DNA from: Brevundimonas sp. | GTDB taxonomy: Bacteria > Pseudomonadota > Alphaproteobacteria > Caulobacterales > Caulobacteraceae | NCBI GenBank assembly: GCA_016742215.1 | Contig: JACVCC010000001.1 | Location: 372,001 to 436,000, forward strand | DNA: 64,000 nt | Direction: 5' to 3' | In this document: one piece after another, positions 87 to 5,186 of the stretch | How positions within the stretch are numbered: the stretch's first letter is position 1 | Layout: each line of letters opens with the position of its first letter | Position numbers and translations under genes: made by a program | Notes under the pieces: generated by a model | The model's database searches: none | The model's input: the letters and a program-made list of their open reading frames with translations, nothing else | Told to the model about the DNA's origin: nothing

Positions 87-1418
87 TCAGGACGCAGCGG
101 GCTTGAGCCGCATCGCCGCCCGGACTGCCTGATCCAGCAGCAGGGCGACGAGAAGACTAAGTCCCGTCAGGGGATAGAGGATGCAGAACGGGATGACGAT
201 GCCGAGAACCGCCGCTCTGACGCGCGGGCCCGGCGGGGCGGTTGGGGCGCCGACACGGCCCTTGGGTCGCCTGCGCCACCACATGACTAGCCCGCTGATC
301 GCCAGCACCCAGACCGCGATGCAGCCCAGCAGCATGAGGATGCGGTTGATCTGGCCATACTGGGTGCCCTGGTGGGTCGCGATGCCCCACTCGATGGCCT
401 TTGCCGCCGGGCCGAACTGCTCGTAGCCGATATCGGCCGCCACCAGCCCGTCGGGACGCACATAAAGCGTGCGGGTGTCCTGGACCCGCATGACCTGAGC
501 GGTCGCTGTCCAGGTCGCGTTCGGATCGGACGGGATCGACAGGATGTAGGGGCGAGCGAGGGCCCGCGCGTCCACCACTGCAAGGGCGGCGGTCAGGTCT
601 GCGGGCGCATGGGGGCGAGCGTGAAGGTTGACGCCCTCAAGGGTCCAGCCCGCTCCGGCAGGGGTGTCGTCATGATGAGCTGTCTGCCAAGCCCCGGCGA
701 CCGGAGCAGGAGGTCGACCCCAGGCCGTGTTTTTCACGGCTCCCATCACCTGTTCGCCCCAGACTGCGGACCAGGGCATGCCGGTGATGGCGAGAAAGGC
801 GATGATGCCGCCCGCGTAAAGGCCGGTGACGGCGTGCAGGTCGCGCCAGAATGGCCGCCCCACCCTCGCCTTGACGGTCAGCACGCCCCCATCCCGTCTG
901 CGCGGCCACCAGAGAAAGATCCCCGTCGCGACGAGGATGATCGCCCAACCAGCCACGATCTCGATCAGCAGGTTCGCCCACGGACCGACGATGGCAAGGC
1001 TGTGGATCTGCTTGACGATTTCGGTCACGCCGCCCGCAGGCGTTACGCCGGTCACGCGCGCATTATGTGGATCGACAAAGACGAACCGCTCTTCGCCGTC
1101 CGGCGAGCGGACGGTGAAGCGAACGGCCCGATCTTCACGGGCGGGTCTCAGTAGATTGATCACCGTCCCCGGCCGGGCCGCCTTCACCGAAGCAAGCCAG
1201 GCATCCGGTGACGCCTGGGTCGACGCCGGGTTAACCGCGGCGACCGGCCGCTGGAGGGCATCATCGATCTCGGGCTGGAACAGATAGATGCCGCCCGTCA
1301 GGGCCAGCAGCATCAGGAAGGGCAGGACAAGAAGTCCGGCGTAGAAATGCCAGCGCCAGACTACCCGGTATGCGCCGCTGATCGGCGCGCGTTCGATACT
1401 CGCCATCGGCTTTCCCAT
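87..1418 (-). CDS. PepSY-associated TM domain membrane protein
   Basis: 443 aa; WRWHFYAGLLVLPFLMLLALTGGIYLF start, HAVTGLYAGGIIAFLAITGMPWS and C-terminal TM helices typical of the PepSY_TM family. Confidence 0.85.
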   Translation of the reverse strand: MGKPMASIERAPISGAYRVVWRWHFYAGLLVLPFLMLLALTGGIYLFQPEIDDALQRPVAAVNPASTQASPDAWLASVKAARPGTVINLLRPAREDRAVRFTVRSPDGEERFVFVDPHNARVTGVTPAGGVTEIVKQIHSLAIVGPWANLLIEIVAGWAIILVATGIFLWWPRRRDGGVLTVKARVGRPFWRDLHAVTGLYAGGIIAFLAITGMPWSAVWGEQVMGAVKNTAWGRPPAPVAGAWQTAHHDDTPAGAGWTLEGVNLHARPHAPADLTAALAVVDARALARPYILSIPSDPNATWTATAQVMRVQDTRTLYVRPDGLVAADIGYEQFGPAAKAIEWGIATHQGTQYGQINRILMLLGCIAVWVLAISGLVMWWRRRPKGRVGAPTAPPGPRVRAAVLGIVIPFCILYPLTGLSLLVALLLDQAVRAAMRLKPAAS

Positions 1419-1573
1419 CAGAAGGCGAAGCGAACGTTGACGAAGACCGGGTCATCGGCATCTCGCTGCCCGGTAAAGATGACGGTGTCCGGGTCAGCGT
1501 CCTGGGCGAAGGCGGGGGCGGCCAAAGCCGCGAGCAGCAGCGCGCACGGCGCCGCACGGGTCATGAGAGACAT
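1418..1573 (-). pseudogene. Remnant of a TonB-dependent receptor (signal peptide + TonB-box-like segment fused to the last beta strand)
   Basis: MSLMTRAAPCALLLAALAAPAFAQDADPDTVIFTGQRDADDPVFVNVRFAF; stop overlaps the PepSY start as ATGA. Confidence 0.55.
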
Positions 1574-1650
1574 GGGAAATCCTGAAACAGAGAAGATCGC
1601 CACGCGGCCGGATGGCGGCGTGGGGCGACGCGCGAGGCGTCAGGTCTGCT

Positions 1651-2010
1651 TCAGGCGAGGGGAGGGGCGGTCGAGGGCGGTCGCGGCGGCGCACGAGCCG
1701 GCGGAGGCGGGCTGACGCTTTCCGCAATCCAGACCGCGGCAGGGGCGACAGCGGGAGCGGCCGAGGGGCAAGGCGTCGGGGGGACGGGCAGCGCCGCCAG
1801 CAGCGGCATGACGCAGGCGGCGCATTTGGCGGGTTTGGCCTTGCCGCCGGGCCCGTCCACCTCGCCGCCTACCTGAACGGTCTGCGGCCCTTCGGCCGTA
1901 CAGAAGATCACGGTTTCGCCCGGCCGGGCGGCCGCCATGGCCCCGAACGGAAGGAGGGTCCCGAGCACGATCGCGAACGTCGCGGCCAGGAAGACCAGCG
2001 AGCGGGACAT
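1651..2010 (-). CDS. DUF2946-like small secreted protein
   Basis: 119 aa from ATG at 2010; hydrophobic N-terminus, KCAACVMPLLAALP motif and proline-rich tail; adjacent to PepSY/TonB locus. Confidence 0.6.
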   Translation of the reverse strand: MSRSLVFLAATFAIVLGTLLPFGAMAAARPGETVIFCTAEGPQTVQVGGEVDGPGGKAKPAKCAACVMPLLAALPVPPTPCPSAAPAVAPAAVWIAESVSPPPPARAPPRPPSTAPPLA

Positions 2011-2154: not shown

Positions 2155-3588
2155 ATGATTGACCGTCTGGCCCTGCTGACCGGCGTCGCTGTTTCGGTCC
2201 TCGCGACATGCCCGGTCGCCGCTCAATCCGCGCAGGATGGATCCGGCGGCCCGGATTCCGTGTCGTTGACGGTCTATAACCAGAATATCGCCCTGGTGGA
2301 GGACACACGGTCCATGACGCTTCCCGCCGGTCGCTCGCGCCGGGAGTTCCCCGGGGTGTCGGCGAGCATTCGCCCGGAAACCGTCGGGCTGTCCGGCCGG
2401 GGTCTTTCTGTGGTCGAGCAGAATTTCGACTACGACCTGCTGACGCCGAACCGTTTGATGCAGGCGGCCGTCGGCGGGGAGATCGGCATTGTCCGCACCA
2501 ATCCCGGCTCGGGCGCCCAGGAGACGGAGCGAGCCCGCGTGCTTGCCGCGAACGAGGGCGTGGTGCTTGAGGTCGATGGCCGGATCGAGGTTTTGCGCGA
2601 CGACGGCGTGCCGACCCGCGTGATATTCGATGAGGTGCCGACGAACCTCCGGCCTCGTCCGACGCTCAGCGTCACCCTGGACGCAAGCAACGGTGGCCAG
2701 CGCGACGTGACGCTGACCTATCTGACGACGGGCCTTCAGTGGAAGGCGGACTATGTGGCCCGGTTCGATGAGGCGAACAATCGGCTGGATCTGACCGGCT
2801 GGGTCACCCTGACCAATGCGTCCGGAGTTACCTTCGCCAATGCGCGCACCAGCGTGGTCGCCGGTGATGTCGCCCTCGCCGATCAGAACCCGGTCAACCG
2901 GGGGCGGGGCTACCCGCAGCAACCGCCACGGGCGGTCAGGGGCGCGGGAACCGAGGCCGGCGGGGCCCAGGGCGTCGGAGACGTCTATGTCTATCCGCTG
3001 CCGGAACCGGTCACTGTCGCGAACAACCAGACCAAGCAGGTGGGATTGATCGACGTGGCCAATGTGCCCGCCTCGAAACGCTACATGTTCCGGTCGGAGT
3101 GGCTTCAGACCGAGGAGGAGCCGCGTGCGGCCGAGGTCGCAGTCGTGTTTTCCAACGGGCGCGCCTCCGGCATCGGCGCCCAACTGCCCGCGGGGATAGC
3201 GCGCGTCTACGTCAACGACGCCTCCGGTGAACCCCGGTTCGTCGGCGAGGATCGGGTACCCCATACCCCGACAGGCTCGGATATCGTCGTCACGACGGGC
3301 CAGGCCTTTGACGTCACGGTGCAGCCGAGGGTGGTCTCCAGCACCACGGTTCCGGGCTACAGCTCCCGACGCACCCGCACGCGCTATGTGATGGAATACA
3401 CGGTCCGCAACGCCCGCTCGCAGGACGTCGTCGTCGAGGTTCGGCAGGGTGGATTCTGGCGTAACACCGAGCTGTCCGAGCAGTCCATCGTTGGCGAGAT
3501 GCGGGACAGCCGGACGGCGGTCTGGAGCGTGCCTGTGTCCGCCAACGGCGAGACGAAGCTGACCGCCACCATCACTACCGGCTACTGA
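2155..3588 (+). CDS. DUF4139 domain-containing protein (copy 1)
   Basis: Signal peptide; VYNQNIALVEDTRSMTLPAG..., LTYLTTGLQWKADYVARFDEANNRLDLTGWVTLTNASG typical of DUF4139. Confidence 0.85.
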   Translation: MIDRLALLTGVAVSVLATCPVAAQSAQDGSGGPDSVSLTVYNQNIALVEDTRSMTLPAGRSRREFPGVSASIRPETVGLSGRGLSVVEQNFDYDLLTPNRLMQAAVGGEIGIVRTNPGSGAQETERARVLAANEGVVLEVDGRIEVLRDDGVPTRVIFDEVPTNLRPRPTLSVTLDASNGGQRDVTLTYLTTGLQWKADYVARFDEANNRLDLTGWVTLTNASGVTFANARTSVVAGDVALADQNPVNRGRGYPQQPPRAVRGAGTEAGGAQGVGDVYVYPLPEPVTVANNQTKQVGLIDVANVPASKRYMFRSEWLQTEEEPRAAEVAVVFSNGRASGIGAQLPAGIARVYVNDASGEPRFVGEDRVPHTPTGSDIVVTTGQAFDVTVQPRVVSSTTVPGYSSRRTRTRYVMEYTVRNARSQDVVVEVRQGGFWRNTELSEQSIVGEMRDSRTAVWSVPVSANGETKLTATITTGY

Positions 3589-3590
3589 TC

Positions 3591-5186
3591 ATGAGGCGGG
3601 CCTTGCTGATTGCAGCAGGGACGACGGTGCTGGCTGTGTGGCCGGCGCTGGCGCTCGCGCAACAGCAGGTGATCTCGTCCGCTCCCGAGAGGGCGGGCGT
3701 CGTCGTCTATCGGGATCGCCCGGTGAATACCGCTGAGCTGCTCGAACGTTCGGGGCGCACCTGGGAAAGGCTGGATCGCGAAGGCCTGGCGCTGATCGTG
3801 GAGACACGCACGCTGGACCTTCCAGCGGGCGACAGCGTCGTGCAGTTCCGGGGGGTGGCGACAGGGATCGTCACCCAGACGGCGACCCTTGAGGGCCTGC
3901 CGGGGCGAGTGAGCGAGAGAAACACCGAGTTCAACCTGCTCAGTCCCGGTTCGATCCTCGAGCATTCGGTCGGCGAGGTCGTCAGCGTGGTCCGCACCAA
4001 TCCGGTGACGGGAGAACAAATCAGGCGACCCGCCATCGTCCGGGCCGCAGCCGGGGGCGCTGTTCTGGAAATCGACGGTCGGCTTGAGGCGCTCGACTGT
4101 TCCGGCCTGACGGAACGCATCATCTTTGATCGCGTCCCGGAGGGATTGGGGGATCAGCCTGTGCTGTCGGTTCGGACGACCACGCCGGCCGCTGGCCGTT
4201 ACACGGTCACACTGGCTTATCTTGCGACCGGCCTTCAGTGGTCGGCCGACTATGTGGCCACCATCCATCCGAATGGCCGCACCCTGTCCCTGACGGGTTG
4301 GATCACCCTGGCGAACTTCGGCGGCACCGGCTTTCCCGATGCGCCGGTGCAGGTCGTGGCGGGAAACCTGAATCGCGATGACGATACCGTCCCCGTCGAT
4401 CCGGACCGACATCAGATTTCCCCTTCATGCTGGCCCCAGGACCGGACGACCGGTGTGCCCTTTGGCGGGGCAATCCCGCCCCCGCCCGCGCACCCGACGC
4501 TCTCCGTAGCGCTCCATGCGCCGATGCTGGACGAGATCGTCGTGACGGGCTCGCGCGTCCGTCGTGACAATCTGGTGGCCATCCAGGGCGACCTTGGGGA
4601 CTACAAGATCTACACCCTGCCGACGCGGACCGACGTCCGGGCCCGGCAGACCAAGCAGGTCCGCTTCCTCGAACAGGATAACGTCCGGTTCACCCGGATC
4701 TACAGGGCGACGCTCAGCTCGTCAGACTCGTCGGACGATCATGCGCCGCAACGCCTGCTGCGATTGCGCAACCGGACCCGCGATGGCCTGGGGCTGCCGC
4801 TCCCCGGCGGTGGCGTCGCTCTGATGGAGAGGCACGGCGGGGCATCCCTGTTCACCGGGGAGGCGCGGTTCGATGATCGACCGGTCGATCTTCCGGTCGA
4901 ACTGGAGTTCGGCCAGGCGTCGGATCTGGCAGTCAGCCATGAGACGCGCCAGCTCGAACCCACTGGCGATCGGGTTCGTTATTCGGTGACCGTGACGGTG
5001 AGGAACGACAAGCCTGAAGCGGTCGAGGTCGAACTGGCTCCTGAGGAGAGCCAGTGGCGCAACTTCCGGATCCTGCAGTCCAGCGAGCCCTCTGTCGTCA
5101 CTGATGCTGGAACGCCGGCCTGGCGGCTCAGCGTTCCATCCGGGCAGGCGAGGGAACTGACCTACACCGTGGAGTTCGGCGGCTAG
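3591..5186 (+). CDS. DUF4139 domain-containing protein (copy 2)
   Basis: LAYLATGLQWSADYVATIHPNGRTLSLTGWITLANFGG aligns with copy 1; contains an extra central segment with EIVVTGSRVRRD. Confidence 0.85.
   Translation: MRRALLIAAGTTVLAVWPALALAQQQVISSAPERAGVVVYRDRPVNTAELLERSGRTWERLDREGLALIVETRTLDLPAGDSVVQFRGVATGIVTQTATLEGLPGRVSERNTEFNLLSPGSILEHSVGEVVSVVRTNPVTGEQIRRPAIVRAAAGGAVLEIDGRLEALDCSGLTERIIFDRVPEGLGDQPVLSVRTTTPAAGRYTVTLAYLATGLQWSADYVATIHPNGRTLSLTGWITLANFGGTGFPDAPVQVVAGNLNRDDDTVPVDPDRHQISPSCWPQDRTTGVPFGGAIPPPPAHPTLSVALHAPMLDEIVVTGSRVRRDNLVAIQGDLGDYKIYTLPTRTDVRARQTKQVRFLEQDNVRFTRIYRATLSSSDSSDDHAPQRLLRLRNRTRDGLGLPLPGGGVALMERHGGASLFTGEARFDDRPVDLPVELEFGQASDLAVSHETRQLEPTGDRVRYSVTVTVRNDKPEAVEVELAPEESQWRNFRILQSSEPSVVTDAGTPAWRLSVPSGQARELTYTVEFGG

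Follow-up and report, generated by a model that had tools for sequence, protein, structure and literature searches.

Organization of the locus

We analysed a minus-strand gene cluster at one end of the window, a 64,000-nucleotide stretch of Brevundimonas sp. DNA from a 2.0-Mb assembly that is 70% complete. The cluster contains a cruR-like DUF2946 leader gene (1651-2010, 119 aa), a micro-ORF of 51 codons (1418-1573) that starts after a gap of 77 nt, and an intact crpH-like PepSY_TM gene (87-1418, 443 aa; PF03929, 220.6 bits). Behind it another gene begins (1-74) and is cut by the window edge, at a place where most relatives have a PCuAC copper chaperone. The leader scores slightly below the Pfam gathering cut-off for DUF2946 (23.2 versus 23.7 bits, E 1.3e-4), and carries a CxxC motif, as CAAC, and a C-terminal RAPP motif 39 residues apart. 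Two adjacent DUF4139-type genes (2155-5186, plus strand) separate the leader from pth in the window, unlike in G088 and many other relatives, where pth immediately precedes the leader.

The micro-ORF is a remnant of a TonB-dependent receptor

The product of the micro-ORF is 51 aa long and reads MSLMTRAAPCALLLAALAAPAFAQDADPDTVIFTGQRDADDPVFVNVRFAF, followed by the stop. The first-pass annotation had described this ORF as overlapping the PepSY start in the form ATGA. The ORF and the overlap stand, but the junction reads TTC TGA TG, that is, TGATG with one shared nucleotide (1416-1420, minus strand). The annotation had also recognized a signal peptide and receptor-like ends, and profiles built from the receptors of the genus agree with it, both ends giving the best score in the window. 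With the N-terminal profile, the first 14 residues score 43.0, compared with a mean of 42.2 for true receptors, and the micro-ORF start ranks first among 12,814 candidate starts in the window (runner-up 20.8). The last 12 residues score 8.2, the top value among 1,023 stop-to-stop ORFs (runner-up 0.6); true receptors reach at least 25, indicating that the tail has diverged, and it is unlike every intact receptor tail compared. A TonB-box-like stretch, DTVIFTGQR, matches a motif that 49 of the 76 genus receptors share and that no other ORF of the window contains.

On its N-side the micro-ORF follows receptor N-termini through the signal peptide and the TonB-box region up to RDADDP (compare DTVIVTARRNADDPVVVAEAR in G008). 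After RDADDP it consists of the final 8-9 codons of the receptor, in frame, which encode the last beta strand (DPVFVNVRFAF; ends of relatives, GRSVFVGLRLAY). Comparison of codons with intact receptors places the deletion junction in GTC TTC GTC (1439-1447, minus strand), with N-side receptor sequence upstream and C-side sequence downstream. At the equivalent sites, relatives have GTCGTC on the N-side and GTCTTCGTC on the C-side, a short imperfect direct repeat that could plausibly have caused the deletion. Short similar sequences near the two ends of the receptor gene probably mediated it. The micro-ORF has no match in Pfam or NCBIfam and lacks the plug and beta-barrel domains of a functional TonB-dependent receptor. 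Both of its ends are homologous to genus receptors and it occupies the same operon position, as expected of a receptor remnant. A search of the window's genome assembly, 70% complete, found no receptor of this family elsewhere.

Relatives carry the full receptor

A search with the PepSY protein (E up to 1e-60) gave matches in 93 of 131 genus genomes. Three loci with partial matches only were left out, and the remaining 90 (89 relatives and the window), sampled by the presence of PepSY, were screened with the receptor and neighbouring proteins as queries. A TonB-dependent receptor, about 690-720 aa where complete, lies directly between the DUF2946 leader and PepSY in 76 of the 90 loci; 13 have no receptor, and one contig (G017) is too short to tell. 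The usual order on contigs that are long enough is pth - DUF2946 - receptor - PepSY - PCuAC, and the receptor stop and PepSY start form TGATG in 44 of the 76 receptor-bearing loci.

On the PepSY tree, the window falls in a supported clade with G088 and G022, both of which bear the receptor, so the short ORF of the window represents a derived deletion. The receptor of G088, the nearest relative, contains both the plug and the barrel domain. In a search of solved structures, a relative's receptor came closest to YncD/PqqU, and PepSY gave no match. These comparisons bear out the earlier proposal of an in-frame internal deletion that kept both receptor ends and the coupling overlap, which was to be checked by looking for a full-length receptor between DUF2946 and PepSY in relatives. 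The removal of about 1.9 kb of the receptor gene's interior, in frame, is near certain, and that the deletion is the derived state is close to certain. A conserved short ORF with no receptor ancestry was considered and rejected.

By analogy, the operon matches the Bordetella cruR-crtA-crpH arrangement of a copper-responsive upstream ORF, a copper receptor and a PepSY_TM protein. By operon context the receptor is a putative CrtA; it did not reach the NCBIfam subfamily cut-offs. The first-pass annotation had linked PepSY_TM genes to siderophore or metal receptors. Operon context points to copper, and the siderophore-receptor label was rejected. In the open-access literature we found no report of this stub, nor of CruR or CrtA in Brevundimonas.

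The receptor and PepSY genes are separable, since at least 14 genomes of the genus have a receptor without a close PepSY partner (G076, G080, G083, G085, G031, G002, G091, G095, G005, G097, G104, G105, G106 and G153). In locus L183 (G120) the receptor is split over two frames (residues 1-563 and 521-686), reflecting either decay under way or a sequencing error, and the PepSY matches in L212 (G035) and L218 (G118) each contain one internal TGA.

The receptor has been lost repeatedly in the genus

The receptor has been lost about 9-11 times independently in the genus: placing the 13 receptor-less loci on the PepSY tree takes 11 state changes, and well-supported branches force 9 of these. The distance from the leader stop to the next start is 50-77 nt in these loci, as in the receptor-bearing ones. 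The sequence at this next start resembles receptor starts and not PepSY starts, with a weak resemblance in G070, G004 and G024, indicating that the start region of the receptor was retained in nearly all receptor-less loci. Since loci were chosen for the presence of PepSY, the survival of some PepSY start is expected anyway. In 10 of the 13, PepSY now begins at the old receptor start, and in G133 and in the group of G096, G086 and G009 the PepSY protein opens with the first codons of crtA (MSLETTAP, MSSKTIAAP).

The other three loci (the window, G011 and G061), which are unrelated, have stubs of 29-52 codons that end at the PepSY ATG or 5 nt before it; each stub type is represented by one genome, and G000 is an incomplete genome. 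The G011 stub (Brevundimonas sp. MCMED-G04, locus L039, contig NZ_JACESA010000008.1, a metagenome assembly) has 52 codons and ends with the exact receptor tail FPGEGRSAYVGVRMSY and TGATG. The G061 stub has 29 codons, encodes a signal peptide only, and stops 5 nt ahead of the PepSY ATG. This recurrent receptor loss, with retention of the start that follows the DUF2946 leader, is the new observation here.

The leader stop codon is predicted to pair with the downstream Shine-Dalgarno region

A Shine-Dalgarno-like AGGA (1580-1583, minus strand; anti-Shine-Dalgarno energy -4.1), once that of the receptor start, now precedes the micro-ORF and belongs to a TTCAGGA that is conserved ahead of receptor starts in the genus. 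In nearly every leader of the genus, TGAA..AGA from the DUF2946 stop complements TCT..TTCAGGA, which lies before and extends into the Shine-Dalgarno sequence of the next gene. In the window, the predicted leader RNA fold (1583-1653, minus strand) pairs a 5' arm, TGAAGCAGA (1645-1653, including the cruR stop codon), with TCTGTTTCA (1583-1591). The stem has nine perfect pairs, its 3' arm lies directly before and partly overlaps the Shine-Dalgarno sequence, and the fold has a z of -3.05 against shuffles.

RNAalifold found no pairs and no consensus fold on a MAFFT alignment of the leaders. Therefore, we used an alignment-free swap test with slid-register controls, and the case for the stem rests on this test. 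Among 38 diverse loci, arms from the same locus pair at -7.53 kcal/mol, compared with -5.28 when swapped between loci, and none of 5000 permutations was as low. The difference corresponds to a z of about -8, or -4.2 for the variable part alone, in a test that removes locus relatedness only partly. Slid control arms gave values mostly near 0; sliding the 3' arm by +8 gave a z of -4.1, as expected for an arm that still overlaps half of the true one. These comparisons suggest base pairing between the stop codon of cruR and the Shine-Dalgarno region that follows, with co-variation of the two arms in the genus. The single-sequence fold of G096-type loci differs from this stem, and the leader RNA has no match in Rfam.

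The CxxC-RAPP spacing of 39 residues is shared by most of the genus and differs from the 45 of Bordetella (PMC9426467), indicating that the spacing varies between lineages. In one clade (L187, L182, L149, L183, L177 and L223) RAPP has disappeared from the leader and the terminal PPPSTAPPTA is kept.

The stub may act as a translation relay

We propose that the window stub, what erosion has left of crtA, persists as a translation relay, which holds crpH under cruR control after loss of the receptor, and consider this reading probable. The stub has the ribosome-binding site and the start of crtA, as well as its signal peptide and its stop. Ribosomes finishing cruR would disturb the stem formed by its stop codon and the downstream Shine-Dalgarno region, after which ribosomes would load at the old crtA start, read through the 51 codons, terminate at TGATG and begin again on crpH, which lacks a Shine-Dalgarno sequence at its first ATG. 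A relay function is likely. We infer the coupling, the copper control and the selection on the stub; the sequence itself shows that a deletion took place and is derived, that stop and start overlap, that the crtA start was retained and that the stem co-varies.

Shine-Dalgarno pairing is +1.2 kcal/mol at the crpH ATG of the window, compared with -4.1 at the stub start. A crude comparison of genus medians gave -4.1 both at receptor starts and at TGATG PepSY starts, so the missing Shine-Dalgarno sequence is particular to the PepSY gene of the window and is no rule of the genus. The main weakness of the relay is a second in-frame PepSY ATG (1404-1406), preceded by a Shine-Dalgarno-like GGGAAAG (-4.2), from which crpH could start without the stub.

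This second start favours the main rival, a neutral scar, in which the deletion is real, the stub is simply left over and unmaintained, and crpH starts by itself, for instance at 1404-1406. A scar would also fit the finding that just 3 of 13 receptor losses left a stub, and that other loci do well with PepSY starting right behind the leader. In addition, high G+C keeps frames open easily, which makes the open frame of the stub weak evidence of selection, and the chance of both double-ended remnants being in frame is as high as 1 in 9. However, the start region and the leader spacing are kept in nearly all receptor-less loci, and both double-ended stubs, in the window and in G011, retain the frame and the exact TGATG. 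The tail of the window stub has also had time to diverge (8.2 versus at least 25), yet the stub is open, with signal peptide and overlap intact. We regard a neutral scar as unlikely, although it is the strongest competitor of the relay.

It is very improbable that the stub encodes a functional peptide of about 28 aa for export, engaging TonB, for example, through the retained TonB-box-like stretch. Although the signal peptide and DTVIFTGQR are intact in the window, no mature peptide is common to its stub and the other two (the TonB box is missing from G011, and in G061 nothing follows the signal peptide), and ten receptor-less loci have no such peptide at all. Least probable of all is the assembly collapse raised by the first-pass annotation, in which the genome has a full receptor whose two ends were joined by the assembler: the genome is only 70% complete, but exact repeats shared by the two ends of an intact receptor gene do not exceed 11 nt, a length at which an assembler would not collapse 1.9 kb. 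Furthermore, the window tail differs from all intact tails, no receptor fragment occurs elsewhere in the assembly, several independent assemblies, complete ones included, also lack the receptor, and in G011 the gene collapsed independently, at another junction.

If the relay reading is right, an operon can shed a costly outer-membrane protein while the gene behind it stays connected, and small ORFs can originate as leftovers with a purely positional role. More tentatively, gene erosion may have yielded relay ORFs several times in this one genus, with stubs of dead outer-membrane receptors, their peptides irrelevant, persisting because ribosomes have to travel from a structured leader that senses copper into the gene behind it. 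Within the genus, intact receptor, stub and start takeover form a natural series in which to study translational coupling behind such a leader, and the putative co-varying pairing of stop codon and Shine-Dalgarno region would give DUF2946 leaders a concrete RNA mechanism, which may complement the Rho-dependent one of Bordetella.

Comparison with known leaders and coupled genes

In Bordetella, the DUF2946 protein CruR is a copper-sensing upstream ORF ahead of genes for a TonB-dependent transporter (CrtA) and a PepSY_TM protein (CrpH) (PMC9426467, PMC12914433, PMC13038864), and loss of CrpH is not phenocopied by loss of CrtA (PMC13038864). The window resembles the B. pertussis cruR-crtA(bfrG)-crpH operon in the order of leader, receptor and PepSY_TM gene, in the CxxC and RAPP of the leader, and in having PCuAC nearby, as in some crtA operons. 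It differs in that crtA is a 51-codon stub, the gap from leader to next gene is 77 nt compared with 162 nt in Bordetella, and a stop/Shine-Dalgarno stem is predicted; for Bordetella, the published mechanism is one of Rho-dependent termination.

CutF of Rhodobacter capsulatus, a member of the DUF2946 family, acts via a stem-loop on the next Shine-Dalgarno sequence (PMC9973294). The leader of cutFOG is likewise exported, has a proline-rich end and is followed by a stem-loop that shields the downstream Shine-Dalgarno sequence. Unlike in the window, its downstream genes encode a multicopper oxidase and a chaperone, with no receptor or stub, and it may respond to copper in a different direction. 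Other leaders use RAPP motifs as arrest sequences (PMC10987492); the same source notes that such arrest had yet to be demonstrated for CruR and CutF. The RAPP arrest-peptide leaders of secA, secDF and yidC resemble the window leader in having a RAPP-like motif at the C-terminus and a stem-loop at the Shine-Dalgarno sequence of the next gene, but they monitor protein export.

Of 14 overlapping pairs tested, 13 showed strict translational coupling (PMC6728339). The window junction resembles these TGATG/ATGA termination-reinitiation pairs in the 1-nt overlap of co-directed ORFs, and differs from them in that its upstream partner is an eroded gene and not one for a functional protein.
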